IMG/VR virus record: IMGVR_UViG_3300008108_000041
Location: 62,001-126,000 of that record
DNA length: 64,000 bases
Reading direction: 5' to 3' (one strand)
From: a virus
Made by a program: the position numbers and the translations under genes. The notes beneath the pieces are model-generated. The model had not been told where the DNA came from, ran no database searches, and saw nothing but the letters and a program-made list of their open reading frames with translations. Of this stretch, positions 17,830 to 62,760 are shown one piece after another; position 1 is the stretch's first letter, and each line of letters starts with the position of its first letter.

Positions 17830-17832
17830 AAA

Positions 17833-18168
17833 ATGGCAAACACTTTTACACGAAAACTCAGCAGACTTGTTGGAACCACAGCTACCTCAGTTGGTGCGTA
17901 CACAGTTGCGGCAAATACAACCGCAGTTGTGGTTGGACTTTCTTTGACCAATGTCACATCAAGTGCAATTGCAGCCAACGTGATTATTTTAGATAACGCA
18001 GCGCAAACCACTCGATTGGCAGTAAATGCACCTATTTCAGCAGGGTCAAGTTTGGTTGTAGGAGGCGGCGATCAAAAGATTGTGTTGGTCACAGGAGATC
18101 AATTGCAAGTTCAAAGTAGCGCAGCTACCAGTATTGATGCAGTAATGAGCATAATGGAAATCACATAA
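17833..18168 (+). CDS. Small virion protein in the fibre cluster
   Basis: A 111-residue protein, mainly predicted strands, with no Cys and no catalytic motif. It starts three bases after the giant fibre and its stop overlaps the next start in TAATG, so it is probably translated by coupling. Residues 15-80 (TTATSVGAYTVAANTTAVVVGLSLTN and the later VVGGGDQKIVLVTGDQLQVQ) look like the small decoration or tail-accessory proteins seen in T4-type and other phage tail regions, which resemble compact beta-sandwiches. Function cannot be fixed further. Confidence 0.5.
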   Translation: MANTFTRKLSRLVGTTATSVGAYTVAANTTAVVVGLSLTNVTSSAIAANVIILDNAAQTTRLAVNAPISAGSSLVVGGGDQKIVLVTGDQLQVQSSAATSIDAVMSIMEIT

Positions 18169-21100
18169 TGAGTTACGTTGGCCTAAATCCGCAACAACAA
18201 CTGCTGAACACCAGCACACAGACCTTTAGTGGCAATGCGGTAGCATATCAGTTCACTTTGGGTCGAGCCGTTGCATCAGCGTCTGACTTGGACGTGATGA
18301 TTGACCAAACTCTACAACGTCCATTCACTGACTACGAAGCCGAAAATGTAAGTTTGTTGTTTCAAACACCACCTCCTAGTGGTACCAACAACATCACGGT
18401 TACCTATCGTGCAGGCGCACTTAACTCTTTAAATCTCACAGCCAACGCATTTGGCGCTGGCACAGTTGGCGCACCTAGTGTGTACTCAGTAGCAGCCAAC
18501 AACACTGGTATATATTGGCCAAATGCTACCACAATGGTCATGACTGTGGCAGGTGGCAATCGTGCCACTTTCAGTAGTAATGTTGAATCAACCAGCAATG
18601 TAACAGGTGCGTTGACAGTAACAGGTGGAGTTGGCGTTACTGGTAATATCAACACCAGCGGAGCAGTGACCATTACCAATGCTACTAACAGTGGCAATGT
18701 AACCACTGGCGCATTAACTGTGGCAGGTGGTGCAGGCATTGTTGGTAACTTAAATATTGGCGGCGACATTACCTGTGTGGGCGATTTTACAGTTAATGGA
18801 ACATTTACCACAACAGGCACAGACAGTTTAGAGGTAAACGATCCGTTTATCTTCTTGGCCAATGCCAATCCGGGTGACACATTCGATTCTGGTGTGATCA
18901 CTGAATACTTTGATGGCGTCAACACACGTTATTCTGGATATTTCCGTGACATCACAGATGCCAAATACAAACTCTTTGGTAATCTAATCGTCAAACCAAC
19001 CACAGTTGTTGACACAGCCAATGCCAGTTTCACATACAATGATTTGATTCTGGCCAATTTGAGTGCTACAGGCAACGTTAGTGGAACATATATTTTGGGC
19101 AACGGTGCATTGCTGAGTGGTATTACAACTGAGACCAGTCAAATTTTCAATGGTACCAGTCGAGTTATTATTCCATCAGCAGCTGGTAATATTGTTAACA
19201 ACGTTAATGGAGTAACAATTGCCACAGTTTGGTCAGGCGGCCTTGTTGTAACTGGTGCCATAAGTGGATCAACTACACTTTTGGTAACTGGCAACGTCAC
19301 AGGTGGTAACATAACCACAGCTGGCGAAGTAACTGGCACAGGCAACATAACTTCAGCAGCTAACATATCTGCTGGTAACATTTTAACAGGCGGCATGTTC
19401 AGCGCCGCAGGTAACATTACTGGTGCAAACGTCAACACTGGCGGTTTGGTATTGGCCACTGGCAATGTCACAGGTGGTAACTTGCGCACAGCTGGTCAAG
19501 CCAGCGCTGGTGGTAACGTCATTGGTGGTAACGTAACCACAGCTGGATCAGTTTCGGCAGCTGGTGTTGTATACGGAGACAGTTTTAGTGCAGCAAATGG
19601 TGTTAGTGCTGGCACAACAGTTGCGGCAACTACAGATATCACTGCTGGTGGCACAATATCAGCGGTGGGAACAATCACTGGTGACGGTGGCGTAACATCT
19701 TCTGCAAACATAGCAGGCGGCAACATCACAACTGGTGGTGTAGTTAGCGCCACTGCTAACGTAATTGGTGGTAACATAACCACAGCTGGTCAGATAATAT
19801 CATCTAAACTTGGCAGCTCAGCGGCTAATGCAGGCCAAATTTTCTTGAATGGTGCTGGTAACAATCGAATTGATTTCAACACAAACGGTACCGATGCTCC
19901 GGCATATACCACAAGAAGTGCTGGTACTAAAATTACATTATTCCCTTCGGTGGGTGCAACCAATGCAGATTATGCCATTGGTATTGACATCAGTACGCTA
20001 TGGAACAGCGTGCCAGGCAATGACGGTTCGCAATTTTTCAAATGGTACGGCGGCACAACACTGGTTGGAAGTTTAAGTAGCACAGGTATATTGTCAATTG
20101 TGGGTAATGTGATTGGTGGTAACATCAATACTGGTGGAATAGTTTCATCTACAGGTAATGTGGTTGGCGGAAACGTAATTGCAACCACATTGGTTCAAAG
20201 TACTTCAGTCAGTGCCACTGGTAACATCACAGGTGGAAACGTACTTACTGGTGGAATTGCCAGTGCCACAGGTAATATCACAGGCGGCAACATTATCACA
20301 GGTGGTGCTATATCTGCAGGTGGTGCTGTTAGTGCCACAGGCAACGTGGTTGGTGGCAATGTCACTGCAACCACAGCAGTCACAGCAGGTTCAGGTGGTG
20401 TGAGTGCAACAGGCAACGTCACAGGCGGTAATTTAGTTACTGCTGGAATTATTACATCAACTGGTAACATAACATCAGCTGGCAACATTGCTGGCGGTAA
20501 TATTTTAGGCACCACACTAGTGCAAGGATCAATTGTTAGTGCCACAGCCAACGTGTTGGCAGCAGCTAACATTTCAGCAGCTGGCACTGTGTTGGCAGCT
20601 CAGTTGAGTTTGAGCGGTAACATTATCAGTGCTGTAGCAACCACAGGCAATATCACAGGCGCTAACGTCAATGCCACGCTTGCATTGAGTGCAGTTGGCA
20701 ACATCACAGGCGGCAATATTTCAACTGCTGGTAACTTGGCAGCACCAACCGCAGCTCAAAATACCAATACTACACAAGTGGCAACTACTGCATTTGTTAT
20801 TGGTCAAGCCAGCTCAACTTCACCAGGTGCAGTTGGGTCAGCCGCAGTTGGAACAGGTACAACTTTTGCCCGAGCAGACCACACTCACTCAGGTGTTACA
20901 AACATCACCACCAGCAGTGGATTAAGCACCAATACCAATGCTACTGGTGCAGTTTCAATTACCAACACTGGTGTTACATCAGCTGTGGCTGGCACAGGTG
21001 TTGGCGTAAGTGGAGCAACAGGTGCTGTTACAATTAGTATTGGACAGTCAGTAGCAACAGGTGCAACTCCAACATTTGCTGGATTAACAGTTGGCACAGG

Positions 21101-30938: not shown

Positions 30939-31856
30939 ATGAAATTGAAATTTGATGAAAAAGTAGAATTTTACATTACCAATGTCTGCAACTACACCTG
31001 CGATAATTGCAACCGTTTTAACAATCATAAATTTTCAGGATGGCAACGCTGGAGCGATTACGAAGGCATCTATCAACAGTGGGCAAAACAAATTGAACTA
31101 CGTGCCATAACTATCTTAGGTGGCGAGCCCACACTAAATCCCACACTGTCAGAATGGGTAGTGGGCTTGAATGAAATATTCAATTGCGATGTAGAAATAC
31201 TGACCAATGGCACTCGACTGAATCATGTCCCAGGACTGTATGAGGCAATGACCAGACCCCGACCGCCAGAAAGGCCAGTGAATCACATTGGAGTGAGTCT
31301 GCACAACATAGCAGACTTTGAAATGTTGCGTCAAAACATATTGGATTTTCTTGATACCGTTGTAGTAGAATTTGGTTTTAAATTAGACCTCCCCCCACCA
31401 CCAAATTGGCAAGGATGGGATTCATACTGGACTGTGGTTGATAAAAATGGTGTGATTGTTTGCATGCACCTAGCCAACAATTTCCAAACATCCGCTGTGC
31501 AGTTAAACAACACTGGCCGATTTATTGTTCATGACAGCGACCCTATACGCAGTCATCAACAGTGCGGATTTGTTAAATTTAAATGCTATCACTTTGTTCG
31601 CGGAAAAATATACAAATGCGGCCCCGCGGCGCTGTTTCCAGAATTTGATGAACAAAATCAATTTGACATTTCTGAATCAGATCGCCAGATCATGAACAGC
31701 TACCGACCACTGACCTTGGACAACTTTGAACTCTACAAAGATGATTGGGTGGAAAGTTTAAAGCACCCAATTCCACAATGTAAATTTTGTCCAGACAAAG
31801 GAATCAATAGAATTATTACCCCCACAGTCAAAGGCACTGCATCCAATGACACATAA
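30939..31856 (+). CDS. Radical SAM enzyme with SPASM-like C-terminal cysteines
   Basis: A 305-residue radical S-adenosylmethionine protein. The iron-sulphur cluster motif is CNYTCDNC (Cys17, Cys21, Cys24), followed by ITILGGEPTLNP (about residue 59), the SAM-contact loop. Cysteines at the C-terminal side (HQQCGFVKFKCYHFVRGKIYKCGP and QCKFCPD) suggest a SPASM/twitch auxiliary cluster. The family performs radical reactions on peptides, sugars or nucleosides; the substrate is unknown. The next gene overlaps its end by 11 bases and encodes an SGNH-fold protein, the same pairing seen in the cassette at 48657-54784. This enzyme belongs to a different subtype from those two: its cluster motif is N-terminal. 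Confidence 0.88.
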   Translation: MKLKFDEKVEFYITNVCNYTCDNCNRFNNHKFSGWQRWSDYEGIYQQWAKQIELRAITILGGEPTLNPTLSEWVVGLNEIFNCDVEILTNGTRLNHVPGLYEAMTRPRPPERPVNHIGVSLHNIADFEMLRQNILDFLDTVVVEFGFKLDLPPPPNWQGWDSYWTVVDKNGVIVCMHLANNFQTSAVQLNNTGRFIVHDSDPIRSHQQCGFVKFKCYHFVRGKIYKCGPAALFPEFDEQNQFDISESDRQIMNSYRPLTLDNFELYKDDWVESLKHPIPQCKFCPDKGINRIITPTVKGTASNDT

Positions 31857-33878: not shown

Positions 33879-34952
33879 ATGACTCAGGTGGTTACGTTTG
33901 ATTTTGGCGGAAAATTTAGCCCGGTATCCTATGAAAACTTGTTGACCAGCATTGCTGTTCTTGCTAAAAAAAGCAAAGATGTTTTGGTATTAGGTTGTCG
34001 GGAAGAAGATTGCAATCCATTAGAGCACTATGCTCAAACTCTTGCACTGCAAGAACACATACACAATCTAGGCATGAAATTTTGTGTGTTTTTTAATTTT
34101 TACACTCAATACACTCAAGAACATTTGCCAGGAATAGATGTTGATTATATTGACTTCATGTTGTTAAAAACAATCCACAATGCTCCTGCGCCTGTTGCAA
34201 AGCAAGGCAGTCGCATTTTATTTTTAATTGGCAAACCTGATAGACCACATCGAGCACCACTGTTATACAAGTTTTATGAGCGTGAGCAACTGGATAAACT
34301 GAGCTGGTCGTTGTTTATACCTGTTCAAATTGAAAATCAAGTACGCAAGTTGATTCCTCATGCAGCTGATCAGCAATGGCAAGAGTTTATGCAACTGCAA
34401 GGCAGTCCTGATGGGGTGACACCAATAGTGAGTGGGTCCAGCATTCACGTTTGTAATTATTGTGATTATGATGCAAAAATATTTGCTGATACCAGCGTGA
34501 GTTTGGTCAGTGAAAGCATGTTTGAACAATCCAATGCGTTGACTGCTCGGGCCACAGAAAAAACTTACAAAGCAATCAACAATCGCCATCCTTTTGTGAT
34601 TGCCGGCCCAGCAGGAACCTTGGAACGATTGCAGTCGCTAGGCTACAAAACGTTTGAAAAACACCTACCCAATCCAGGGTATGATCAGGAAGTTAACAAT
34701 GACATCCGTTTGGAACTAATTTATGAAAACATTTTGGCGTTGCATAAGTTGGCCACAGAGCATCCAGAATCTCTTGCAAATGATATAGAACATAACTATA
34801 CTGTCAACAAGCAACGATATCAACAACAACTTGATCGTGCCGCTGCCATGTTAGCAAAATACGGTTACAACGGATCAGCAATTGACGTTCTCATGCTGCA
34901 TGACCAAGTGGCCCCAAACACACTGACAGAAAAATTTATGGAACTTGTATGA
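33879..34952 (+). CDS. Unknown protein with a glycosyltransferase-like C-terminal signature
   Basis: A 357-residue protein, unrecognised as a whole. Residues about 225-275 carry SESMFEQSNALTARATEKTYKAINNRHPFVIAGPAGTLERLQSLGYKTFEKH, a signature also present near the end of the protein at 52240 (EKIFKPMAYYHPFIVFGSYETLKYLHREGFETFG). This EKxxKPxxxxHPF pattern is common in uncharacterised phage and bacterial proteins and resembles the acceptor-side region of fucosyltransferase-like GT-B enzymes. Sugar transfer is therefore a reasonable but unproven guess. Its stop overlaps the next start in ATGA, linking it to the nucleotide kinase gene. Confidence 0.55.
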   Translation: MTQVVTFDFGGKFSPVSYENLLTSIAVLAKKSKDVLVLGCREEDCNPLEHYAQTLALQEHIHNLGMKFCVFFNFYTQYTQEHLPGIDVDYIDFMLLKTIHNAPAPVAKQGSRILFLIGKPDRPHRAPLLYKFYEREQLDKLSWSLFIPVQIENQVRKLIPHAADQQWQEFMQLQGSPDGVTPIVSGSSIHVCNYCDYDAKIFADTSVSLVSESMFEQSNALTARATEKTYKAINNRHPFVIAGPAGTLERLQSLGYKTFEKHLPNPGYDQEVNNDIRLELIYENILALHKLATEHPESLANDIEHNYTVNKQRYQQQLDRAAAMLAKYGYNGSAIDVLMLHDQVAPNTLTEKFMELV

Positions 34953-45496: not shown

Positions 45497-45868
45497 GTGC
45501 GAGCACAAGAGTTCATTGCAGAAGACAAAGTTGGCACGATTAGCAAACGCAATCAAAATGCCACAGTAGGCTTGAACAAGTTTCGAGACAAGCAGTTTGC
45601 TGACCGCGTGTATGAACTCAACAGAATCATGATGGCAGTGGCATCTACTGATGGCACGTTTGTACCTGATCTTGACGGCGAATCATGGAGCGGTCGCAAC
45701 AATGTGGCAGCACCATACACTCCTGAAGAACAGGCCATGTTGAAAAAGGCCTATCAAGCAGTGGGCAGTCATCACCAAGACCTAAATCATGGCGATTTGG
45801 CTTCGCAAGAACATCCAGCAGTGAATGCCACCAGTCCAGTCAAAGCATTCCAGGGCTATCCAAGATGA
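45497..45868 (+). CDS. Candidate internal head protein A (T4 IP-like targeting start, GTG start)
   Basis: A 123-residue protein starting with GTG two bases after the previous stop. The start MRAQEFIAE is nearly that of T4 internal proteins (MKTYQEFIAE), a signal for packing into the prohead followed by gp21 cleavage after Ile-Ala-Glu. The end, SPVKAFQGYPR, is shared with the next gene, so the two are relatives with different middles. The GTG start is chosen because it aligns exactly with the ATG start of the relative at 45865. T4 internal proteins are injected with the DNA and block host restriction; any such role here is an inference. Confidence 0.6.
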   Translation: MRAQEFIAEDKVGTISKRNQNATVGLNKFRDKQFADRVYELNRIMMAVASTDGTFVPDLDGESWSGRNNVAAPYTPEEQAMLKKAYQAVGSHHQDLNHGDLASQEHPAVNATSPVKAFQGYPR

Positions 45869-46254
45869 GAGCACGAGAATTCATTACTGAACAAGCAGCT
45901 ATTTTGCCACCAGAGCAATCTGACCCCATGCGTTACACTTATGTGATTCCAGGACTGAGTGCAGCCGACCCCTATCGCAACTATAGATTTGGTGTGGCAT
46001 TGGCACGAGCCAGAAGTGATGCTGGCAAAGATGGAATTACCAATCACATTCCCAATTGGCATGATGAAACAGCATTTGGTGAACATGGTGTGGTCGAAGG
46101 CATGGGTCCTAACGTTGCTGAAATTATTGATCAAGCGTTGGCAATGACCAACACACCTGGTGGCAAAAAACTAGTGTCAACACCTGACAGCACAGAACCC
46201 AGCTTTGTAAGCACAACCAGTCCTGTAAAGGCATTTGCTGGCTACCCTCGCTAA
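45865..46254 (+). CDS. Candidate internal head protein B (T4 IP-like targeting start)
   Basis: A 129-residue protein starting MRAREFITE, with a possible gp21 cut after Ile-Thr-Glu, and ending SPVKAFAGYPR. Start and end match the gene before it, but the middle (RYTYVIPGLSAADPYRNYRFGVALARARSDAGKD, NHIPNWHDETAFGEHGVV) is different. The middle reads like a compact enzyme-inhibitor or binding domain with no recognised family. The ATG overlaps the stop of protein A by four bases (ATGA). A T-run at about 46256-46265 follows its stop, without a clear stem. Confidence 0.6.
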   Translation: MRAREFITEQAAILPPEQSDPMRYTYVIPGLSAADPYRNYRFGVALARARSDAGKDGITNHIPNWHDETAFGEHGVVEGMGPNVAEIIDQALAMTNTPGGKKLVSTPDSTEPSFVSTTSPVKAFAGYPR

Positions 46255-46291: not shown

Positions 46292-46570
46292 ATGGCAAAC
46301 CCACCCCCACCATACGACAACATCACAGGCATAAGCCGTGCTGTAATGAAAGACAACGCACAAGTAACATTGGCAAATTACAATGGCAATGCTAGACCTG
46401 GTGAACTGGTAGTTGATCAAAGTACTGATCAAGTGTATATTGGCAACAGCTCTGGCGCACTAACACAGATTGCTGCCGGTATTAGTAACGGCGGTAGTTC
46501 AGGACTTCCTGCAGGATTTTTTCAATTGGCTTACAATCCCACCACTGGTGAAATTGTATATTACACTTAA
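46292..46570 (+). CDS. Small fibre-type protein
   Basis: A 92-residue protein with NARPGELVVDQSTDQVYIGNSSGALTQI, the PGELV...VYVGN module often found as head or tip unit in phage fibres. Pro-rich start (ANPPPPYDN). It precedes the adhesin-like protein at 46613 by 43 bases and could be its partner or a short fibre. The ending TTGEIVYYT resembles that of the mini protein at 4248 (GKFRGYNG type). No enzyme motif. Confidence 0.55.
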   Translation: MANPPPPYDNITGISRAVMKDNAQVTLANYNGNARPGELVVDQSTDQVYIGNSSGALTQIAAGISNGGSSGLPAGFFQLAYNPTTGEIVYYT

Positions 46571-48638: not shown

Positions 48639-48642
48639 AACG

Positions 48643-48656
48643 CCCGTAAATACGGG
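48643..48656 (+). promoter_or_regulatory. Palindromic late promoter element abutting a start codon
   Basis: CCCGTA-AA-TACGGG forms a perfect inverted repeat that contains the late motif CGTAAATA (48645-48652) and ends directly at the ATG at 48657. It is both a likely promoter -10 and a small hairpin or protein site. Confidence 0.55.
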
Positions 48657-49805
48657 ATGAAAGAATTTTATTGCGCGGCCCCCTGGCGCGGTCTACATAT
48701 CAATCCCCGAGGCGATGTAAAAACTTGTTGTGCTGGCAACCCCAACATGCTGGGCAACCTCAATACCCAAACAATTGAACAGATCCTTAACTCCAATCTC
48801 ATGACAGAGATACGCACCAGCTTGTCACAAGGCAAGCCGCATGAGTATTGTTCTAACTGTGTGCGAGCTGAACGTTTTGGTGCAGATTCCGAACGCCAAT
48901 GGCACAACAATGTAAATCCCAACTTTGACTATGCCACAGCTGGGGACCAGTATCACTATCCTGTTATTGTGGATGTGCGCTGGAATACCACTTGCAATTT
49001 GAGTTGCAACTACTGTGGCGAATCTTGCAGTTCAAAATGGGCCAGCCTCAAAGGCATTCCATTTAAGAGTGGTGCAAGACCCTACTATGATTCAGTATGC
49101 GACTTTATTGAACAGCACTATGAACACATACACGAAGTAGCACTTGTGGGTGGTGAACCCTTGTTGCTGCCAGAAAACAATCGACTGCTAGATGTCATAC
49201 CCAAGGATGCCATAGTCACACTGATCACAAACCTAAACGTGGACTTGGATTCAAACAAGATATTTCAAAAGTTGTCAACACGCAATCGAGTTGGCTGGTC
49301 AATGAGTTTTGACAACACCGGTGAACGAGTGGAGTATGTGCGACACGGTGCTACATGGTCATTGATCAAAGAAAACTTGAGTAAGATCAAACATCTCATG
49401 ACCACACAAGGTCAGTGGGGCGGCATACATGCGGTGTACAACATTTACAATGCCACTCGCATCTGTGAATTAAGACAGTTTGCTGAGGATACAGGCACCA
49501 CAGTGCTGTGGCAAAACTTGTTTCAGCCCGAATACCTTGATCCGTTCTTGCACGGTGCTGGTGTTGCTCGGGAAGCCATTACAGAGATTGAACGTTTCTA
49601 TGCGATGGGTATTGCTACCCCTGCTGAACGCCAGTTCTTTGACAATGCATTAGCTACCTATCAAGCCAGATTGAGTGAGAACAAAATCAGCAAGATTGAC
49701 ACAGCGTTCTTCAAACACATTCATGACAACGAGACCAAGTATCATCCAGACAAAGCTGGTGAATTTCAACGCCTATGGCCAGAACTGGCATTCCTATGCA
49801 AATAA
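48657..49805 (+). CDS. Twitch-type radical SAM protein (cassette gene 1)
   Basis: A 382-residue radical SAM enzyme with an N-terminal SPASM/twitch domain and a central SAM domain. Cysteines at 6, 24, 25, 65 and 68 (FYCAAPWRGLHINPRGDVKTCC, EYCSNC) hold an auxiliary cluster; CNLSCNYC (Cys113, Cys117, Cys120) is the SAM cluster, with VALVGGEPLL near residue 161. The family, common in T4-type cyanophages, modifies unknown substrates; a peptide or sugar acceptor is likely by analogy. The last ten bases overlap the next gene, ATGCAAATAA, and the whole run to 54784 overlaps in this manner. The late motif 48645-48652 lies four bases before its ATG. Confidence 0.9.
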   Translation: MKEFYCAAPWRGLHINPRGDVKTCCAGNPNMLGNLNTQTIEQILNSNLMTEIRTSLSQGKPHEYCSNCVRAERFGADSERQWHNNVNPNFDYATAGDQYHYPVIVDVRWNTTCNLSCNYCGESCSSKWASLKGIPFKSGARPYYDSVCDFIEQHYEHIHEVALVGGEPLLLPENNRLLDVIPKDAIVTLITNLNVDLDSNKIFQKLSTRNRVGWSMSFDNTGERVEYVRHGATWSLIKENLSKIKHLMTTQGQWGGIHAVYNIYNATRICELRQFAEDTGTTVLWQNLFQPEYLDPFLHGAGVAREAITEIERFYAMGIATPAERQFFDNALATYQARLSENKISKIDTAFFKHIHDNETKYHPDKAGEFQRLWPELAFLCK

Positions 49806-50356
49806 CTGCTGTTGATGAGTATTATGACTTGTTCTTGATTGAAAATGTTTTTCCTGAAAACATTGTGCAAAAAGTCATGACTACCGACTGGTTGTCTCTG
49901 CCCTGGCAAAAACAAGAAGGGCAAGAACTATGGCCACGAAGAAAAATTAACAATGACTCTTTGCCTTGGATGCCAGAATGGCACCAATATCTTGAACAGC
50001 ACATTGATCAAATTGAACATGGCCTTGGGCGCAAACTGCAAGGATATCAAGGCACAGCGTGGTGGGTAGACGAACCAGGATTCACTTGTGCCATGCACAC
50101 TGATGGCGAAATGCCGGGATCCATGCAACTGACTTGGATTGGTGCTGACGCACAGTTGGGCACTTCGTTTTACCACTACAAAAATCCTGACTCATTGCGA
50201 TATCAATTTACCATGCAACCCAACAGTGGTTATATAATGATCAACACACCAGATAGTCAAGGTGTGAGACATTTACAATGGCATGCCATGCTAACGCCAG
50301 TTCCTGCTGACTCTTTTAGACTGTGCAGTTACAGTTGGCTTTCAGAAAAATTATGA
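49796..50356 (+). CDS. 2-oxoglutarate/Fe(II) oxygenase-like protein (cassette gene 2)
   Basis: A 186-residue protein. The pattern FTCAMHTDG (His101, Asp103) followed by a strand-rich segment and SQGVRHLQWH (His159 or His163) is the metal-binding HxD...H layout of small iron oxygenases; a conserved Arg after it (FRLCSYSW) would hold the co-substrate. Such enzymes hydroxylate or oxidise side chains, nucleosides or sugars. The start at 49796 rather than 49775 is chosen because it directly overlaps the end of the preceding gene, and it has no independent ribosome site. The stop overlaps the next start as ATGA. Assignment to a fold rests on the motif only. Confidence 0.6.
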   Translation: MQITAVDEYYDLFLIENVFPENIVQKVMTTDWLSLPWQKQEGQELWPRRKINNDSLPWMPEWHQYLEQHIDQIEHGLGRKLQGYQGTAWWVDEPGFTCAMHTDGEMPGSMQLTWIGADAQLGTSFYHYKNPDSLRYQFTMQPNSGYIMINTPDSQGVRHLQWHAMLTPVPADSFRLCSYSWLSEKL

Positions 50357-51489
50357 TTACACAAAGTCCTACATTTTGTTCAGCACCTTGGACCAGTTTG
50401 AATATTGATCAAACTGGTCGTGTGTTCCCCTGCATGCACTCAGGTTATGAACTGGGCAACATCAAAGAAATACCCATACAACAGGTGTTGTTGAATGCAC
50501 CTGCTAGAGAACTTAAAAATGCCATGGCACAAGGCGAGTGGCATGCAGCATGCACTTGGTGCAAGCAACTTGAAGAAACCACAGGCTCCAGTGGTAGAAC
50601 AGTGCGACATGCAGATCCAGACACATTGTCAGCTATTGATCAAGACATTGAATTTTTTAAATTAGAACATCTTGTGGTTAACTGGAGTAATCTGTGCAAT
50701 CTTACCTGTGTGTATTGCAATCCTGAAACTTCCACGGCTTGGCAAAGTGTCAAACGCATACCAATCAATCATGTTAAAAATGAACATGAAGACCTTATCG
50801 AATTGGCACAAGCACAAGGACAAAACATTCAAGGTCTTGTGTTGGGCGGCGGTGAACCATTGTTGCAAAAAGGGCTTGACAGGTTTCTAAAATTTATAAA
50901 TCCAAACAAAGTACGAGTAATGGTTACTACCAATCTCAGCATGGATATCACTACCAACACAATCTATCAAACACTTAAAACTTGGCCTAGCGTGGACTGG
51001 ATGATCAGCTTTGACAATGCCAATGCTGAAAAATTTGAATATGTGCGGGATCGAGCCAATTGGCAACAGTTTGAAAAAAACATTGCTGTGATGAAACAAG
51101 ATCAACAAAAAGTCATAGCGCATCCGGCCTATTCAATTTATTGTGCATTAGACCTTGTGGAATACTATGAATATTGTGAACGTCACAATCTTGATTTGTT
51201 TTGGTGTGAACTGTCTCATCCTTGGGAGTTAGACATTCGACGATACCCTGAGGCGTTAAGACAACTGGCCATACAAGAAATAGATAAAGTTGTACAACGC
51301 TGGCAAGATCACAAGGGTCGTGCAGTAGACACACTCAAACGATATCGCATGACTTTGCAAGACAACAGTTATTTGATATCTCCTGATTACAACTTTGACA
51401 TTTTGGAATTTCATAAAAACATTGAGCAACAGCTTAAAAAATCAACAAGTTTTGCTGCTCTTTGGCCTACCATTGCTAATTCATTATGA
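50353..51489 (+). CDS. Second twitch-type radical SAM protein (cassette gene 3)
   Basis: A 378-residue paralogue of cassette gene 1. The N-terminal cysteines are at 9, 27, 67 and 70 (FCSAPWTSLNIDQTGRVFPC, ACTWC) and the SAM cluster CNLTCVYC is at 115-122 (Cys115, Cys119, Cys122); GLVLGGGEPLLQ follows. The two proteins share the FCxAPW start, cluster spacing and an end with FAALWP or FQRLWP. Two enzymes of one subtype in one cassette suggest sequential or symmetrical modification. The ATG at 50353 overlaps the preceding stop (ATGA), and the upstream in-frame ATG at 50323 lies deep in the previous gene, so it is rejected. Confidence 0.9.
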   Translation: MITQSPTFCSAPWTSLNIDQTGRVFPCMHSGYELGNIKEIPIQQVLLNAPARELKNAMAQGEWHAACTWCKQLEETTGSSGRTVRHADPDTLSAIDQDIEFFKLEHLVVNWSNLCNLTCVYCNPETSTAWQSVKRIPINHVKNEHEDLIELAQAQGQNIQGLVLGGGEPLLQKGLDRFLKFINPNKVRVMVTTNLSMDITTNTIYQTLKTWPSVDWMISFDNANAEKFEYVRDRANWQQFEKNIAVMKQDQQKVIAHPAYSIYCALDLVEYYEYCERHNLDLFWCELSHPWELDIRRYPEALRQLAIQEIDKVVQRWQDHKGRAVDTLKRYRMTLQDNSYLISPDYNFDILEFHKNIEQQLKKSTSFAALWPTIANSL

Positions 51490-52274
51490 TAACACATCAA
51501 AAACCATATCATCCTGGCATTCACATAGCAGACCAATGTTTGGATTGGATGCCAACTGACACCAAAGAACATTTTGACAACTTGATGCAAAATTCTGCAC
51601 ATCGAGAATATTTTCAAAACATGGGTTGGGACAAGCCAGGTGCTATCACTTACAATCTAAACAGCGAAGGATTCAGATGCGATGAGTTTGATGACTTGCC
51701 GTGTGTTGTGGCACTGGGTTGCAGTTATACCATGGGCATTGGGTTGCCAGTAGAATGCTTGTGGCCCAGCCTAGTAGGACAAGCATTGAATTTAAAAGTG
51801 TTTAATTTGGCTTGGGGCGGCTATTCAGCTGACAGTTGTTTTAGATTGGCTAGATATTGGCTACCAAAACTCAATGCCAAAGTGGTTTGCATGCTTGCAC
51901 CACCGCAAGCTAGAATTGAATTAGTTCTTGCAGAAAAATGCCAAGACAGTGATATATTTAAAGCAGATACTTTTATGCCACAGAGCCAGAGCAAGTATTT
52001 CAACCCTGCAGATGTGTATCTCAACACATGGTTCATGCAAGAAGAAAATCACTTGATCAACAAAGAAAAAAACATTTTTGCTGTGCAGCAAATGTCTACC
52101 AATGCAGGTGCTAAATTTTGTTCTGTAGACACTGACACTACAATGACAAGATCGAGAGAAGACATAGGATATGCAAGAGATCACATGCACGGTGGTCCAA
52201 AGATACATCGTGAAATAGCCAGTACCATGTTGTTACAATATGAGCAAAATCAAACTAATATATCACCCCAATGA
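51486..52274 (+). CDS. SGNH-fold protein with long N-terminal part (cassette gene 4)
   Basis: A 262-residue protein. VVALGCSYTMGIGLP (Ser near residue 79) is the nucleophile block, NLAWGGYSADSCFR (about 107) the glycine block, and YARDHMHGGPKIHREIA (about 227-243) the Asp-x-x-His block of SGNH hydrolases. The first 60 residues (PGIHIADQCLDWMPTDTKEHFDNL, ITYNLNSEGFRCDEFD) occur as a leader in other phage and bacterial SGNH proteins. It probably removes or transfers an acyl group on a sugar or peptide. Overlaps the previous stop (ATGA) and the next start by 35 bases. Confidence 0.72.
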   Translation: MITHQKPYHPGIHIADQCLDWMPTDTKEHFDNLMQNSAHREYFQNMGWDKPGAITYNLNSEGFRCDEFDDLPCVVALGCSYTMGIGLPVECLWPSLVGQALNLKVFNLAWGGYSADSCFRLARYWLPKLNAKVVCMLAPPQARIELVLAEKCQDSDIFKADTFMPQSQSKYFNPADVYLNTWFMQEENHLINKEKNIFAVQQMSTNAGAKFCSVDTDTTMTRSREDIGYARDHMHGGPKIHREIASTMLLQYEQNQTNISPQ

Positions 52275-53232
52275 GTTTGTGAACTTTACTCACGGGTGTG
52301 TTCGCCCGCAGGTTGATCCATACTTTGACCTGGTGCCTTACTCTGATGATGTATTCTATTCACCTGCAGATTGTGTGGTGCTGACCAATCATGTTAGTGT
52401 GCTGGAAAAAACTCCACAATGGTGGCAGCCGTTTGTCAACAGCGGATTTAAAATGATTGTGGACCATCTTTGGGACAGTGATGTAGACACGCCCAGTATA
52501 GCCAAAGATGGAAGATTAACACTGAGAAATGGCAATTGGCTGTGGTACAGAGAAAGTTTGTACTACACTGCTGTGGCATACAACGAGTACCGCCCTAACA
52601 GACGCTATCGACACAGTTTTTTCATGCCAATGAACAAAGAACGAGAACACAAAGACCTCACTTTGAAAACACTGTCTCCTGTGCTTGATCAAGCTCTGTG
52701 GAGTTATGTAGCACGTGGACACCTGTTGCCAGGCGATTGCGATCACAACAATCCCAACAATCCAGTTTACTGGTTGTACTACATGAATCCAGACTGGTAC
52801 GACTCCACTTGCTTTAGTGTGGTGGTAGAAAGCTACATGCGCACCAACGCCTGGACCAACAGCCCATGCTTGCCTTGCTACAAAACAGAAGTGAGCGAAA
52901 AAATATTCAAACCCATGGCCTACTATCATCCTTTTATTGTGTTTGGATCTTATGAAACATTAAAGTACTTGCATCGCGAAGGATTTGAAACATTTGGTAA
53001 TCTCTGGGACGAAAGCTATGACAACATTGCTAATGACGAGCAACGGCATACTCAAGTTACACAAGTTGTTGTTGACGCTGTACGTGAGTATTGGCCGCAT
53101 CAATTTGCAATTGACTCATTGACTGAACAAAAATTGCAACACAATCGCAATAGATTTTTTAACCAACAGTTGGTGCAACAACGATTTGCAAATGAAATCA
53201 TAAGAGACATTGAAAATTTTGTAAACTCATGA
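52240..53232 (+). CDS. Glycosyltransferase-like protein (cassette gene 5)
   Basis: A 330-residue protein, unrecognised as a whole. EKIFKPMAYYHPFIVFGSYETLKYLHREGFETFGNLWDESYD near residues 222-265 matches the signature in the protein at 33879 (EKTYKAINNRHPFVIAGPAGTLERLQSLGYKTF). The pattern recalls the nucleotide-sugar side of fucosyltransferase-like GT-B enzymes. The N-terminal part (NEFVNFTHGCVRP, VVLTNHVSVLE) has no clear parallel. It overlaps the preceding gene by 35 bases in another frame and the next by ATGA. Sugar transfer is inferred from the motif and from the sugar epimerase two genes on. Confidence 0.55.
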   Translation: MSKIKLIYHPNEFVNFTHGCVRPQVDPYFDLVPYSDDVFYSPADCVVLTNHVSVLEKTPQWWQPFVNSGFKMIVDHLWDSDVDTPSIAKDGRLTLRNGNWLWYRESLYYTAVAYNEYRPNRRYRHSFFMPMNKEREHKDLTLKTLSPVLDQALWSYVARGHLLPGDCDHNNPNNPVYWLYYMNPDWYDSTCFSVVVESYMRTNAWTNSPCLPCYKTEVSEKIFKPMAYYHPFIVFGSYETLKYLHREGFETFGNLWDESYDNIANDEQRHTQVTQVVVDAVREYWPHQFAIDSLTEQKLQHNRNRFFNQQLVQQRFANEIIRDIENFVNS

Positions 53233-53831
53233 AACGTGTGTACATTTGCGGTGATAGTTTTTGTGTGCCAGATCCAGAATACGGACCTTGCTGGGTAGAC
53301 CTATTGGGCGTAGAATTTCAGACGGTAAATCAAGCGACAGTCAGTGCTACCAATCTCATGATAGCCATGCAAGTAGATGGTGCCATTGAGGATCAAGCTG
53401 ACTTTGTGATTGTGCAAGGAACCAGTTGCACTCGCAGCCAAACACGATATCAAGACCAAATAGTTCCTTACAGTTTTCTCACAGCCAGCACAGCAACCAC
53501 GCCATTTGATCAACGCAAGTTAGAATTGATCAAACACTATTACACAGAATTTTTTGATCTTGATCTTGCCATATACCAAAATCAATGCGTCATTGAAAAC
53601 ACTCTCCAAAAATTAGTTGATAGCAAAATACCTTTTTTGTTTGACCAAGGCGGCTTTGAACATCCAAAGTTTGGCGGTACCAAACAGTATTTTAGCAAGT
53701 TTGATCAGTATCGCAGCCAAGTGAATCTCTGGGACCATGGCAATACCGCACTGTACAGACCCTACTATCACATAACTGACACTGCCATACATCAACAAGT
53801 GGCTAACTACTATATCAAGGAAATACAATGA
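53229..53831 (+). CDS. SGNH-fold protein (cassette gene 6)
   Basis: A 200-residue protein with VYICGDSFCVPDP (block I, Ser near residue 10), FVIVQGTSCTR (about 57) and YHITDTAIHQQVANYY near the C-terminus (Asp-x-x-x-His). It is shorter than cassette gene 4 and of a different subtype. The central Asn-containing block is hard to place (NQATVSATNLMIA). An acyl-ester hydrolase or transferase role is likely by fold, the acceptor unknown. Both ends overlap their neighbours in ATGA, so all three consecutive genes are read by termination-reinitiation. Confidence 0.65.
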   Translation: MKRVYICGDSFCVPDPEYGPCWVDLLGVEFQTVNQATVSATNLMIAMQVDGAIEDQADFVIVQGTSCTRSQTRYQDQIVPYSFLTASTATTPFDQRKLELIKHYYTEFFDLDLAIYQNQCVIENTLQKLVDSKIPFLFDQGGFEHPKFGGTKQYFSKFDQYRSQVNLWDHGNTALYRPYYHITDTAIHQQVANYYIKEIQ

Positions 53832-54784
53832 AAAAAGTTTTAGTTTGTGGTGCTGGGGGATTTATTGGCACACACCTGGTAAAAAGTTTACGAGCACAAG
53901 GTCACTATGTGATTGGTGCTGATCTAAAACATCCAGAATTTGGGCCGCATGAATGCCACGAATTTTATCAGTACGATTTAAGAAACCAACGGCGAGTGAC
54001 CAGTTTGATCACAAACGAAATAGATGAAATTTATCAACTGGCAGCAGACATGGGAGGCGCAGGATACATTTTTTCTGGGGTCAACGACGCAGAAATTTTG
54101 CACAACAGTGCGCTGATCAATCTCAACATTCTACATGAGATGACTTTTAAACGTTGCAAAAAGATTTTCTACAGTTCCAGTGCCTGTATCTATCCTGCGC
54201 ACAATCAAGTTGATCCTGACAATCCCAACTGTGAAGAGTCCAGTGCTTATCCGGCCAACCCAGACAGTGAATATGGATGGGAAAAACTGTTCAGCGAACA
54301 TCTTTACTCCAGCTTTGCTCGCAATCATGGATTTGATGTTAGAATAGCTAGACTGCATAATGTGTTTGGTCCTGACAGCGCCTGGCAAGGTGGCAAAGAA
54401 AAAGCACCAGCGGCATTGTGTCGCAAAGTTGCTGAAAGTGAAAATGGTATTGTTGAAGTATGGGGACCAGGCACGCAAACTCGCAGTTTTTTATGGATTG
54501 AAGAATGCATTGAAGGCATACACCGACTGATGGACAGCAGTCATACTCAACCTGTAAACATTGGCAGTGATCGAATGATATCAATCAACGACCTAGTAAA
54601 CTTGATAGCCAATGTAGTCAACAAACCAGTTGCAATACAAAACATACCTGGACCACTGGGAGTAATGGGGCGCAACAGTGACAACACCTTGATTGAGTCG
54701 GTGCTGGGGTGGAAACCACAAGATCGTTTGGAGCATGGCATAACCCAATTGTATCTATGGATACAACAACAACGCAATAAGTAA
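53828..54784 (+). CDS. GDP-mannose 3,5-epimerase-like SDR enzyme (cassette gene 7)
   Basis: A 318-residue extended short-chain dehydrogenase. GAGGFIG (residues 8-14) binds NAD; YSSSACIYP (about 114-122) and YGWEK (about 151-155) provide the Ser, Cys and Tyr-x-x-x-Lys active centre. The stretches LAADMGGAGYIFSG, FGPDSAWQGGKEKAPAALCRK and VWGPGTQTRSFLWIEECIEGIHRL follow GDP-mannose 3,5-epimerase, which yields GDP-galactose isomers from GDP-mannose. It would supply an activated sugar to the transferase-like gene 5. No ribosome site; the start overlaps gene 6 (ATGA). It closes the cassette, and gp17 follows four bases later. Confidence 0.85.
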   Translation: MKKVLVCGAGGFIGTHLVKSLRAQGHYVIGADLKHPEFGPHECHEFYQYDLRNQRRVTSLITNEIDEIYQLAADMGGAGYIFSGVNDAEILHNSALINLNILHEMTFKRCKKIFYSSSACIYPAHNQVDPDNPNCEESSAYPANPDSEYGWEKLFSEHLYSSFARNHGFDVRIARLHNVFGPDSAWQGGKEKAPAALCRKVAESENGIVEVWGPGTQTRSFLWIEECIEGIHRLMDSSHTQPVNIGSDRMISINDLVNLIANVVNKPVAIQNIPGPLGVMGRNSDNTLIESVLGWKPQDRLEHGITQLYLWIQQQRNK

Positions 54785-54788
54785 TTGT

Positions 54789-56375
54789 ATGATTGGAATG
54801 AAATCAAATAATCTAGAAACAGTGCTGGTCAAAGCACCGCACAGAGTTGAAACATACACTGAACAAGAACTCACGGAGTTTGCGCTGTGTGCTGATCCCG
54901 TCACAGGCCCGCTGTATTTCATGGATAACTTTTTCTTTATCCAGCATCCCACACGCGGCAAGATGTTGTATCATCCTTTTGACTATCAAAAGCGACTGAT
55001 CCATACCTATCACAACTATAGATATTCAATATCCTTGATGCCTCGACAAACAGGCAAGTCCACATCAGCTGCTGGATACCTGCTGTGGTATGCAATGTTT
55101 GTGCCAGATTCCACAATTCTTATTGCCGCACACAAATACACAGGCGCACAAGAGATCATGCAACGCATAAGATATGCTTATGAGTTGTGCCCCAATCACA
55201 TACGAGCAGGTGCTACCTCTTACAACAAAGGGTCAGTGGAGTTTGAAAACGGATCGCGTATTGTGAGTCAAACCACAACAGAAACAACCGGACGGGGTAT
55301 GTCAATATCCTTGCTGTACGCTGACGAATTTGCGTTTGTGCGACCCACAATTGCCAAAGAGTTTTGGACTTCAATTTCACCTACCTTGGCCACTGGTGGT
55401 AAAGCAATTATCACAAGCACTCCCAACTCAGACGAGGACCAGTTTGCGTTCTTGTGGAAAGGTGCTAATAAGACAGAAGATGAACACGGCAATACCACAG
55501 AACTAGGCATCAACGGATTCCGTGCCTTTCGCAGTTTCTGGCGCGAGCACCCTGATCGTGGAGATCAATGGGGTGCAGAACAACTGGCTCAGCTGGGCGA
55601 AGAACGTTTTCGCAGAGAAATGGATTGCGAATTTGTTATCAATGACGAAACACTAATAGCACCTATCAAGCTGATGGATCTTGAAGGAACAGAGCCCATG
55701 CACAGAACTGGACAGGTACGCTGGTACAAGACTCCCACTAAAGATGGCATGTATGTGGTAGCACTGGATCCCAGCTTGGGCACAGGTGGCGATCCTGCTG
55801 CCATACAAGTATTTGATGCTAGAACTACAGATCAGATTGCTGAATGGCGCCACAACAAAACTGACATTCCCACACAAATTAGAATTCTTGCAGATATTAT
55901 AAAAGAACTGCATGGGGTAGTGAAAGACGAAAAAAGCATTTACTATTCAGTAGAAAACAACACCATTGGTGAAGCGGCCTTGATCAGTATTGCTGAATAC
56001 GGTGAAGAAAATATTCCAGGATATTTTTTAAGCGACAATTCAGTAACAGGCACAACGGGTCGACGATTCCGCAAGGGCTTTAACACCACAAACAAAAGCA
56101 AAATAACAGCCTGCAACAAGTTCAAAATTCTAGTGGAATCTGGGCGTATGAAAATTAACTCAAGGCCCTTGGTTTCAGAACTCAAAACGTTTGTGGCCAT
56201 GGGCACCAGCTATGCTGCCAAACCCGGCGAAACAGACGATTTGGTCATGGCCAGTTTGCTGGTTGTACGCATGCTGTTAATGCTACAAACTTACCACTCA
56301 GACTTGGATTCGCACCTTAAAGACCACGGAGACATGATTGTTGAGCCGTTTCCATTCATATCAATGATGCGCTAA
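54789..56375 (+). CDS. 17: Terminase large subunit gp17
   Basis: A 528-residue packaging motor. ATPase part: PRQTGKST (residues about 82-89, Walker A with the Arg of T4-type terminases) and LLYADEFAFV (about 175, Walker B and catalytic Glu). Nuclease part: VALDPSLGTGGDPAAIQVFD (about 318) and YSVENNTIGEAALISIAEYG (about 390), with DDLVMASLLVVRMLL near the end giving the last acidic residue. It pumps DNA into the head and cuts the concatemer. T4 gp17 is 610 residues. Its small subunit gene is 12 kb upstream, separated by the modification cassette, which implies that the cassette was inserted between or assembled beside packaging genes. Confidence 0.95.
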   Translation: MIGMKSNNLETVLVKAPHRVETYTEQELTEFALCADPVTGPLYFMDNFFFIQHPTRGKMLYHPFDYQKRLIHTYHNYRYSISLMPRQTGKSTSAAGYLLWYAMFVPDSTILIAAHKYTGAQEIMQRIRYAYELCPNHIRAGATSYNKGSVEFENGSRIVSQTTTETTGRGMSISLLYADEFAFVRPTIAKEFWTSISPTLATGGKAIITSTPNSDEDQFAFLWKGANKTEDEHGNTTELGINGFRAFRSFWREHPDRGDQWGAEQLAQLGEERFRREMDCEFVINDETLIAPIKLMDLEGTEPMHRTGQVRWYKTPTKDGMYVVALDPSLGTGGDPAAIQVFDARTTDQIAEWRHNKTDIPTQIRILADIIKELHGVVKDEKSIYYSVENNTIGEAALISIAEYGEENIPGYFLSDNSVTGTTGRRFRKGFNTTNKSKITACNKFKILVESGRMKINSRPLVSELKTFVAMGTSYAAKPGETDDLVMASLLVVRMLLMLQTYHSDLDSHLKDHGDMIVEPFPFISMMR

Positions 56376-61538: not shown

Positions 61539-61990
61539 TGTGGTATAGTCGAGTAGTTGCTAATCTTGATGCTATTCCAGATTTTATAGCACACTACGAG
61601 CGTGAAATAACTGACGCTAAAAAAGACTGCCGCATTGCTGGAATTGTTGAAAAAAACATAACAGCACTTCCTGGCATTACTGAGTTTAGATACAACCAGC
61701 TTCAAGAAATTGAAGCTGTGTTGAACTTCCTCAATATCCAACTGCGTAAGATCCGCAGAAAGCATTTCCAAAAGTATCTGGAAGGCTATGCCCGTGCGCT
61801 CACTAGTCGCGACGCAGAAAAGTATGTGGATGGCGAAGATGAAGTGATTGATTACGAAACCATAATCAACGAAGTGGCATACCTACGCAATCGCTGGTTG
61901 GGTATCATGAAGGGTCTGGATACCAAACAGTGGCAAATGGGGCATGTTGTGCGGCTAAGAACTGCTGGCATGGAAGACATCCAGGTGTAA
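61538..61990 (+). CDS. uvsY: Recombination mediator UvsY
   Basis: A 150-residue basic, helical protein with the UvsY layout: FIAHYEREITDAKKDCRIAG, FLNIQLRKIRRKHFQKYLEGYARALTSRDAEKYVDGEDEVIDYETIINEVAYLRNRWLGIMKGLDTKQWQMGHVVRLRTAGMEDIQV. The final part, after a central helical dimer region, matches in order the end of T4 UvsY (ALDAIKSRGFAIKHIQDMRAF). It loads UvsX on gp32-covered DNA and is a hexamer in T4. T4 UvsY is 137 residues. Direct neighbour to uvsX and the small acidic gene. Confidence 0.85.
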   Translation: MWYSRVVANLDAIPDFIAHYEREITDAKKDCRIAGIVEKNITALPGITEFRYNQLQEIEAVLNFLNIQLRKIRRKHFQKYLEGYARALTSRDAEKYVDGEDEVIDYETIINEVAYLRNRWLGIMKGLDTKQWQMGHVVRLRTAGMEDIQV

Positions 61991-61993
61991 ATA
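61986..61993 (+). promoter_or_regulatory. T4-type late promoter motif before the nucleotidyltransferase, leaderless spacing
   Basis: TGTAAATA spans the UvsY stop, five bases before the ATG at 61999. Confidence 0.5.
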
Positions 61994-61998
61994 CCTGC

Positions 61999-62760
61999 AT
62001 GAAAATTGTACTTGTAACTGGCGGCTTTGATCCGCTACACTCTGGGCATATTGCCTATTTCAAAACCGCCCGCACTTTAGGCGACATGCTGATTGTGGGA
62101 CTTAATTCAGACGAATGGCTGACTCGTAAAAAAGGTCGGCCATTCATGCCATGGACGGAAAGATTGTGTGTGATAAACAATCTTGCCATGGTTGACGAAG
62201 TGTACACATTTGACGATGCAGATGGTTCAGCTAAAGAGTTTATCCGACAGGTTCGAGCACACTACCCTGACGCAACGTTGATATTTGCCAATGGTGGTGA
62301 TCGCACTGACAAAAACATTCCTGAAATGGATGTGATAGATAGCAATTTAGAATTTGCATTTGGTGTAGGCGGCGAGGATAAAAAGAATAGCAGTTCATGG
62401 ATTCTTGAAGAATGGAAAAAGCCCAAGACCTCGCGAGCCTGGGGATACTATCGTGTGTTACACGAAGTTGGCGCCAACACCAAACTTAAAGAACTTACTG
62501 TGGCACCCAAAACTTGTTTGAGCATGCAACGGCATGACCGACGATCAGAGTTTTGGTTTGTGGCTGAAGGTGAAGCCACGGTGTACACACTAGATTCCAG
62601 TACAGATAGAGACATCAAAGATCACCTAACTGTGCATGAAGCTACTTGGATCAATCGCAATGAATGGCATCAATTGTGCAACGAAACAGACCGTCCACTC
62701 AAACTGATTGAAATACAGTTTGGGGAAAACTGTGTAGAAGAAGATATCGAACGCCGATGA
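61999..62760 (+). CDS. Nucleotidyltransferase-cupin fusion protein
   Basis: A 253-residue fusion. Residues 1-130 form a cytidylyltransferase-like domain: VTGGFDPLHSGH (HxGH at 14-17), VGLNSDEWLTRKKGRPFMPWTERL, FANGGDRTDKNIPEMDV. Residues about 150-250 are a cupin of the type that ends mannose-6-phosphate isomerase/GDP-mannose pyrophosphorylase: RAWGYYRVLHEVGANTKLKELTVAPKTCLSMQRHDRRSEFWFVAEGEATVY. The pair should activate and fold a sugar phosphate, probably making a CDP- or GDP-linked sugar. The start at 61999 is chosen because it follows the UvsY stop and a late motif; an earlier in-frame start at 61930 lies inside uvsY. It overlaps the next gene in ATGA. Confidence 0.85.
   Translation: MKIVLVTGGFDPLHSGHIAYFKTARTLGDMLIVGLNSDEWLTRKKGRPFMPWTERLCVINNLAMVDEVYTFDDADGSAKEFIRQVRAHYPDATLIFANGGDRTDKNIPEMDVIDSNLEFAFGVGGEDKKNSSSWILEEWKKPKTSRAWGYYRVLHEVGANTKLKELTVAPKTCLSMQRHDRRSEFWFVAEGEATVYTLDSSTDRDIKDHLTVHEATWINRNEWHQLCNETDRPLKLIEIQFGENCVEEDIERR

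Follow-up and report, generated by a model that had tools for sequence, protein, structure and literature searches.

A group of uncultivated giant phages carries, next to its DNA-packaging gene, a fixed-order set of radical SAM, oxygenase, esterase-like and sugar-epimerase-like genes that is best read as an outlying piece of a larger phage-borne gene island, probably for building an unusual sugar- or peptide-based modification. We examined a 64,000-nucleotide stretch (hereafter the window) of the IMG/VR virus record IMGVR_UViG_3300008108_000041, positions 62,001 to 126,000, in which seven overlapping genes (g1 to g7) lie on the + strand between virion genes and the terminase large subunit gene (terL) of a phage whose terminase is 51% identical to that of Pseudomonas phage PA5oct. 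The initial annotation had described these genes as one coupled unit, and this observation is confirmed: all seven open reading frames exist, with successive overlaps of 10 bases, ATGA, ATGA, 35 bases, ATGA and ATGA, and the five that could be checked keep their catalytic residues. The features of the unit are as follows.

48639..48656 (+), leader of the unit, with a late-promoter-like TAAATA at 48647-48652 inside the palindrome CCCGTAAATACGGG
48657..49805 (+), g1, radical SAM enzyme with an N-terminal twitch domain (NF033640)
49796..50356 (+), g2, predicted 2OG/Fe(II) dioxygenase (a longer reading frame opens at 49775; the internal ATG at 49796 gives the ten-base overlap)
50353..51489 (+), g3, second radical SAM enzyme of the same family, sister group of g1
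51486..52274 (+), g4, SGNH-type protein (esterase or acyltransferase-like)
52240..53232 (+), g5, a member of a family here called C1, of no recognised fold, with the motif EK..kP..PF..GF.TF...DESYD
53229..53831 (+), g6, SGNH-like by motif only (GDSF)
53828..54784 (+), g7, GDP-mannose 3,5-epimerase-like nucleotide-sugar enzyme (phrog_540)
54789..56375 (+), terminase large subunit, which closes the unit (phrog_36964, E 5.9e-118; 51% identical to PA5oct-group terminases)

The initial annotation had also held that only the first gene has a promoter-like element. A sigma-70 scan performed at chance here (15 sites found, 13.5 expected), but the motif TAAATA, which resembles the T4-type late promoter, lies 5-45 bases before the starts of listed genes in 15 of its 30 occurrences in the window, against 0.45 expected (p 6e-20). 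Its only + strand copy between g1 and terL is at 48647, ten bases before g1; one reverse-strand copy lies at 51960 inside g4, and the next + strand copy is at 56373. We therefore infer, from sequence alone, that g1 to g7 plus terL look like one late unit.

Both radical SAM proteins score above the curated cut-off of NF033640 (210.7 bits for g1 and 190.6 bits for g3, cut-off 170), and a phylogenetic tree groups g1 with g3 with support of 100/99. In g1 the auxiliary cysteines C6, C24, C65 and C68, as well as C113, C117 and C120, are invariant in 35 of 35 aligned rows, and in the broader alignment of the island plus cassette family the CxxxCxxC radical SAM motif is present in 54 of 54 rows, while the second auxiliary Cys column holds Cys in 52, the two others being g3-type rows. 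Among the closest known systems is BtrN, the 2-deoxy-scyllo-inosamine dehydrogenase of butirosin biosynthesis: both the twitch-type auxiliary cluster region with its four Cys and the radical SAM core align, and the four auxiliary Cys are as in BtrN and not as in the open iron site of MoaA (PMC9012708). However, the N-terminal part of g1 aligns to the C-terminal twitch domain of BtrN, such that the layout is permuted and the BtrN domain order is not found here.

For g2, H108, D110, H170 and R182 (numbered from 49775), corresponding to the HxD...H set and a 2OG-binding Arg, are invariant in 28 of 28 sequences, and a structure model (pLDDT 91) has the 2OG/Fe(II) dioxygenase fold, with best PDB matches to PasI (Z 15.6), OGFOD1 (14.9), PolD (14.5) and prolyl hydroxylases (13-14). 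In g4, Ser80, Asp232 and His235, the block I Ser and block V Asp-His of SGNH hydrolases, are invariant in 39 of 39 sequences, and there are weak profile matches to the GDSL esterases 9otv and 4rsh (E about 1e-3). The g7 protein matches GDP-mannose 3,5-epimerase (E 6.5e-91 to 8sg0, 4.3e-90 to 2c59), with the active-site motifs SSACIYP, YGxEK and GGxEKAPAA conserved in the alignment.

By contrast, two names given in the initial annotation, transferase-like for g5 and SGNH for g6, are not independently supported. Searches with g5 returned no Pfam or PHROG match, neither a small nor a deep profile matched a solved structure meaningfully, and its structure model was too poor to use (pLDDT 42). A resemblance of the g5 motif to GT10 glycosyltransferases was considered, but PF00852 gave no match at g5; in 11 records it gave a single 13-bit hit, below cut-off, at 120309-120443 of the related record G003, which is not a C1 place. 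Family C1 gave 1-14 profile matches per record in 11 of 11 records, many of them short or weak. For g6, GDSF is present, but neither g6 nor its G003 homologue matched an SGNH family; 16 loci carry homologues of g6, 10 of them with the order C1-g6-g7.

The gene order recurs in dozens of contigs, and is therefore not due to chance. Random order in relatives had been named beforehand as a condition that would refute the initial interpretation, yet the order was the same in every locus that could be read, 54 by terL and 68 by g1, and no unassigned gap over 300 bases lies between g1 and terL in the readable loci. In one contig (L010) the nuclease and g1 are in one open frame. Two homologue listings in which some contigs appear twice were left out of all counts. 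The seven genes are nonetheless not one indivisible cassette. The core g1-g2-g3-g4 sits at the same place in fixed order in relatives, with g1 near-constant and g2-g4 optional, whereas g5-g6-g7 is a movable trio, found beside terL or, in G003 and locus L318, in the same order inside a separate island of ~17 kb, next to radical SAM, C5 and carbamoyltransferase genes.

This island is present in all eight g1-bearing records over 220 kb examined, and holds 5-6 radical SAM genes of the same family, a NodU-type carbamoyltransferase, an amidinotransferase-like enzyme and a conserved 33-residue peptide. Ten related records carry 3-16 such radical SAM genes each. A g3 orthologue and g2-type genes sit in the island of other genomes, and homologues of g2 to g7 all occur in the island in some relative. 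The carbamoyltransferase was found in 8 of 11 records, namely the 8 over 220 kb, an Fe-S A-type carrier gene in 12 of 13 records (fitting a need to load many Fe-S enzymes), and epimerase-superfamily genes, a broad Pfam family, in 10 of 11. The window's own record shows neither the A-type carrier nor the carbamoyltransferase, though it is a fragment that begins inside the island. Of 80 phage loci around g7-like epimerases, 21 have a family radical SAM gene and 23 a C1 gene within 6 kb, often in the order radical SAM-C1-epimerase, but 59 have no such radical SAM gene within that distance.

The interpretation put forward in the initial annotation, a biosynthetic pathway for a modified sugar, peptide or nucleoside encoded amid the packaging genes, is thus supported only in part. 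A coupled unit with intact enzymes in the packaging region and a plausible biosynthetic role are supported, and no match to g1, g2 or g5 was found at E 1e-5 in 50,697 annotated phage records (g3 has only weak matches, E 1e-3 or so). But it is not a closed seven-gene pathway, and the cassette is best read as an outpost of a genome-wide system whose island lies outside the window and so could not have been seen from it.

We hypothesize, with about even confidence, that the cassette is a late-expressed outpost of a phage-encoded carbohydrate-tailoring system. In this view g7 would convert GDP-mannose to a GDP-L-sugar, as inferred from its family; g5 would transfer this or a related sugar, an inference that is weak, as g5 has no detectable relation to a known glycosyltransferase; g6 and g4 would add or remove acyl groups; g2 would hydroxylate or oxidise with 2-oxoglutarate; and g1 and g3 would oxidise a substrate carbon by radical chemistry, as BtrN oxidises an aminocyclitol alcohol, using a fully Cys-ligated auxiliary cluster as electron acceptor. 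The island would supply further ordered radical SAM steps, carbamoylation and possibly amidination, and a late promoter shared with packaging genes suggests a virion-borne or surface product. What the analysis establishes is gene content and order, the conserved residues, the modelled fold of g2, the families of g1, g3 and g7, and the linkage with the island; the substrate, product and target, the activity of g7 on GDP-mannose, and each of the reactions above are inferred only. It also weighs against this view that the commonest filled state of the site is g1 alone (14 of 54 terL loci, 17 of 68 g1 loci), so that g1 would work without the sugar genes beside it.

The main rival, possible though less likely, is that the radical SAM enzymes and the oxygenase modify a peptide or a virion protein, in a RiPP-like manner, as SPASM/twitch radical SAM enzymes often act on peptides. 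A candidate is the basic peptide of the island, a 33-residue reading frame ending KELRKRDPFIYK that lies just before the carbamoyltransferase or an SGNH gene; of 34 variable bases in five sequences, 23 are third-codon, and of 80 loci kept from a scan for its tail, 66 hold a carbamoyltransferase and 45 a family radical SAM gene. A 33-residue consensus gave no match at E 1 in annotated phages, although the low-complexity filter of BLAST may hide so basic a peptide. In addition, g2 resembles prolyl hydroxylases nearly as well as nucleoside-pathway oxygenases, and two small proteins upstream of the cassette share conserved ends. However, the peptide also precedes the carbamoyltransferase in loci where no radical SAM gene is recognised (for example L408, L409, L449 and L467, which are short loci), and small partners of a NodU-type carbamoyltransferase are known (SxtJ, SxtK; PMC2679770), so an accessory subunit is at least as likely; moreover, no peptide gene was seen in the seven-gene unit, whose reading frames overlap throughout, and sugar enzymes recur next to the radical SAM genes.

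It is unlikely that these are unlinked passenger genes gathered at a hotspot before terL, although gene content does vary: 14 of 54 readable terL loci have none of the cassette genes, and 6 of those 14 have 0.7-2.5 kb of unassigned DNA there instead. Epimerases of this type are also widespread in cyanophage records in which g1 has no match, and in L020, a related locus, the cassette genes differ very unevenly from the window (g2 49%, g7 97%), as in a mosaic. Against this, the order is fixed, and the same families recur together at an unrelated place in the genome, with the trio intact. Hypermodification of phage DNA bases seems very unlikely, even though radical SAM, oxygenase and transferase genes occur in phage base-modification pathways and the cassette lies beside the packaging enzyme, as no thymidylate synthase or dCMP hydroxymethylase family gene (PF00303) was found in any of 11 records, some of them fragments, while 9 of 14 control genomes gave a match; the T4-type entry step to glucosylated hydroxymethylcytosine was thus not found, which leaves aside other entry routes.

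Radical-SAM-rich phages have been noted in print twice: the T4-like TARA_ERS488813_N000010 (PMC5332604), with 12 radical SAM genes and an Fe-S carrier gene, and the Aeromonas giant phage 332-Vera (PMC12390700), with 8 and with radical SAM genes inside the structural gene cluster, which its authors called highly unusual. As far as seen, neither account names a pathway, a twitch family or a linkage to sugar, carbamoyl or amidino enzymes, and our literature searches, confined to open-licence PMC papers, found no report of the present gene set. Cyanophage and pelagiphage sugar genes include the same epimerase family (phrog_540; 57% identity over the full length to P-TIM68) and the same carbamoyltransferase family (Nol-like, phrog_1601), but g1 and g2 have no match in those records at E 1e-5, and an island radical SAM protein matches only 6 records, five Vibrio phages and one marine virus contig, AG-345-D19. 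That contig also has a 49% identical carbamoyltransferase, and another contig of the same name has the epimerase, so parts of the system do occur there. Vibrio jumbo phage K566 has four radical SAM genes of the broad family within 7 kb, but they are very distant (long branches in the tree), and no member of the carbamoyltransferase, amidinotransferase, C1 or epimerase groups was recognised in the 17 kb stretch. The saxitoxin cluster likewise combines a carbamoyltransferase with tiny partners (SxtI/SxtJ/SxtK) and an amidinotransferase (SxtG), but only families are shared, the phage amidinotransferase-like protein scores best against glycine amidinotransferase, and nothing here indicates that toxin. 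A single scan of bacterial genome contigs gave 20 loci that matched only around the radical SAM core, and was uninformative.

Tentatively, a group of giant phages may run its own multi-step radical SAM assembly line, of five position-specific island enzymes plus g1 and g3, with GDP-L-sugar supply, carbamoylation, amidination and a conserved 33-residue peptide, making a product class not known from any virus that would be put on the virion or made in the infected cell late in infection. Viruses are usually seen as borrowing single metabolic genes, whereas here related jumbo phages devote a conserved, ordered island plus an outpost in the packaging region to chemistry normally seen in antibiotic, cofactor and glycan biosynthesis. 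This may give a concrete setting for the unexplained radical-SAM-rich phages already in print, offers a large set of permuted twitch radical SAM enzymes, their reactions still to be assigned, and links them to testable partners: a GDP-mannose epimerase-like protein, a carbamoyltransferase and a tiny conserved peptide.

The virus record is 139,029 bases long, and the window covers its bases 62001-126000. The terminase large subunit (terL) encoded there is 51% identical to those of Pseudomonas phages of the PA5oct group and 49% identical to that of Agrobacterium phage Atu_ph07, and a tail sheath, a tail tube, a UvsX-like recombinase and an SSB protein are also encoded in the window. Pseudomonas phage Paride of the PA5oct group has terminase, SSB and UvsX-like genes in the same order, and in PA5oct a structural gene runs straight into terL with nothing annotated between. 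The seven ORFs of the cassette (g1 to g7) and their overlaps are as the initial annotation had described them, and that observation holds. The motif TAAATA, which resembles the T4-type late promoter, is strongly enriched before genes of the window (15 of 30 sites, against 0.45 expected), and its only plus-strand copy between g1 and terL stands ten bases before g1. The following further features were seen in the window:

45497-45868 and 45865-46254, two adjacent small proteins that start [MV]RA[QR]EFI[AT]E, like a capsid-targeting leader with a prohead-protease site, and end SPVKAF[QA]GYPR; both ends are conserved in about 70 homologues each, while much of the middle varies
46292-46570 (and homologues), a 92-residue protein whose N-terminal 63 residues occur alone or repeated with different continuations in relatives, like a fibre anchor
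33879-34952, a further gene of the g5-like family (termed C1), with a profile match at 96347-96814 of the window's own record (termed G000), E 4.7e-13
30939-31856, an ORF with a weak radical SAM match (15.8 bits, below the cut-off) at 92957-93223 of G000
61980-61995, another TAAATA in a palindrome (CAGGTGTAAATACCTG), like the one before g1

The radical SAM proteins g1 and g3 belong to NF033640. Four N-terminal Cys and the Cys of the CxxxCxxC motif are invariant in 35 of 35 alignment rows. The N-terminal domain aligns with the C-terminal twitch domain of BtrN, while the core aligns, weakly, with the N-terminal part of BtrN, so that the layout is permuted. BtrN carries out a two-electron oxidation with a four-Cys auxiliary cluster, whereas MoaA has an open iron site (PMC9012708), and the Cys pattern found here is of the BtrN kind. 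The g2 protein is predicted by structure modelling to be a 2OG/Fe(II) dioxygenase (pLDDT 91), with PasI, OGFOD1, PolD and prolyl hydroxylases as the best structural matches (Z 13-16), and has invariant H108, D110, H170 and R182. The SGNH-type protein g4 keeps Ser80, Asp232 and His235 in 39 of 39 sequences, and g7 is a GDP-mannose 3,5-epimerase by sequence. By contrast, g5 and g6 have no assignable family.

To examine how the cassette is distributed, we scanned IMG/VR with terL and with g1 and analysed the best 80 loci of each scan, the two lists sharing contigs. Of the 80 terL loci, 54 had a readable anchor upstream (26 were dropped as too short): 39 of these have g1, 14 have none of the genes, and one has g4 alone. 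In the g1 set 68 of 80 loci were readable (12 were dropped). Every readable locus follows the order (C1)-g1-g2-g3-g4-(C1-g6-g7)-terL with members missing, and three loci have two g4 copies in a row; the commonest filled state is g1 alone (14 of 54 and 17 of 68 loci, respectively). Between g1 and terL no readable locus has an unassigned gap over 300 bases, whereas upstream of g1 such gaps are common, and 6 of the 14 empty loci have 0.7-2.5 kb of unassigned DNA. The full seven-gene set is present in four of the 68 loci: in three of them all seven proteins are identical to those of the window, and in the fourth, contig L020, they share 93% (g1), 49% (g2), 74% (g3), 83% (g4), 91% (g5), 85% (g6) and 97% (g7) identity with the window's. 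In another contig, L010 (3819-5423), the nuclease and g1 form one open frame, which may be a natural fusion or a sequence error.

The window's own record has 7 radical SAM genes over the NF033640 cut-off, of which the five other than g1 and g3 lie in its first 8 kb, where the record is cut. Ten related records, picked because their g1 or terL was found and all bearing g1, have 3 to 16 such genes over the cut-off (7 to 16 in the eight records of over 220 kb; 6 to 21 matches of any strength). Records G001 (364 kb) and G002 (220 kb), which carry the cassette at 100% identity, show the whole of a separate radical SAM gene island; they are near-identical to each other and to G000, so the eight records stand for about seven lineages. 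In the eight island stretches compared, an amidinotransferase-like gene (C3), a carbamoyltransferase gene (C4) and a gene of unknown function (C5) are present in 8 of 8, a further family (C2) in 7 of 8 (and in the cut G000), and 2OG-oxygenase-like genes in 5 of 8, with 5-6 radical SAM genes and C1 genes in each. The amidinotransferase-like protein matches glycine amidinotransferase (E 3e-16), then inosamine-phosphate amidinotransferase, HsvA and SxtG, although a Pfam search gave it no family. An AMP-binding enzyme and a periplasmic-binding-like protein (L247:16382-17467 and 17464-18384) lie beside the island in the three near-identical records only. A phylogenetic tree of 61 radical SAM sequences places the island genes into five groups, each with one member from each of the eight records plus a few extra rows, and g1 and g3 into two further sister groups (support 100/99), although the long-branched rows of Vibrio phage K566 and the deep joins are unsure. 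This distribution suggests five fixed steps rather than redundant copies.

Several lines of evidence link the cassette with the island. In record G003 the island holds epimerase, g6-like and g5-like genes in the same order as g5-g6-g7. Of 16 loci with a g6 homologue, 9 have C1-g6-g7 beside terL (six of these identical to the window's g6) and 7 have g6 in an island, one of these with g7 and six, nearly alike, without; L318, a locus from another scan, also has C1-g6-g7 in an island. A g3 orthologue lies in the island of record G006, and g2-type genes lie in the islands of records G003 and G008. Among the best 80 loci around g7-like epimerases, which are a sample, 21 have a radical SAM gene of the family and 23 a C1 gene within at most 6 kb. 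By contrast, 205 annotated phage records hold the epimerase, while no record matches g1 at E 1e-5; one exception to this contrast is that contigs named Marine virus AG-345-D19 hold the epimerase and, on another contig, a 49% identical carbamoyltransferase next to a radical SAM match.

A spacer of about 95 bases between C5 and the next gene of the island encodes a 33-residue peptide ending KELRKRDPFIYK, which overlaps the next start by ATGA; the window's own record is cut before this point. Of 34 variable bases in five sequences (those recovered by the search pattern from eight stretches), 23 are third-codon positions. A pattern scan found at least 120 stretches, of which 80 were retained; because the pattern itself fixes the tail, the conservation of the tail among them is by construction. 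Of 60 stretches with more than 1 kb downstream, 36 have the carbamoyltransferase next, 15 a g4-like SGNH gene, 2 a radical SAM gene, and 7 none of these; of 71 with enough upstream DNA, 28 have C5 just before and 33 have no recognised gene. As SxtI is described as acting with the small proteins SxtJ and SxtK (PMC2679770), an accessory role of the peptide is likely, but a precursor role is not excluded.

An A-type Fe-S carrier gene is present in 12 of 13 records, the window's own fragment being the exception; the marine phages of PMC5332604 include rich carriers too, though many of their close relatives lack such genes. In another IMG/VR contig (L093:10972-11680) an A-type Fe-S carrier gene and an IscU-like gene lie directly beside a g5-like gene, with an amidinotransferase-like gene about 9 kb away. 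In the island, TAAATA stands 12-28 bases before the amidinotransferase-like gene in 7 of 7 genomes examined, and within 70 bases of only two other starts (an unassigned gene in record G005 and a C1 gene in record G007), but not before a radical SAM gene. Late expression is therefore supported, on this sequence evidence, for the cassette and for that one gene, but not for the whole island.

Radical-SAM-rich phages are already in print (PMC5332604, PMC12390700), so the abundance of these genes is not new, whereas the family assignment, the fixed order, the permuted twitch layout in phages, the mobility of the g5-g6-g7 trio and the link to sugar, carbamoyl and peptide genes were not found in the literature searched. 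A carbohydrate-tailoring role is the best-supported mechanism, although we consider it only about as likely as not; modification of a peptide is its main rival, and DNA modification by the T4 route is unlikely. Gene content, gene order, conserved residues and the linkage of cassette and island were observed directly in the sequences, while the roles proposed for the enzymes, the five fixed steps and late expression are inferred from them. The proposal of the initial annotation, that the seven genes form a biosynthetic pathway, is supported in part: rather than standing alone, the unit is a modular outpost of a larger, conserved phage system.
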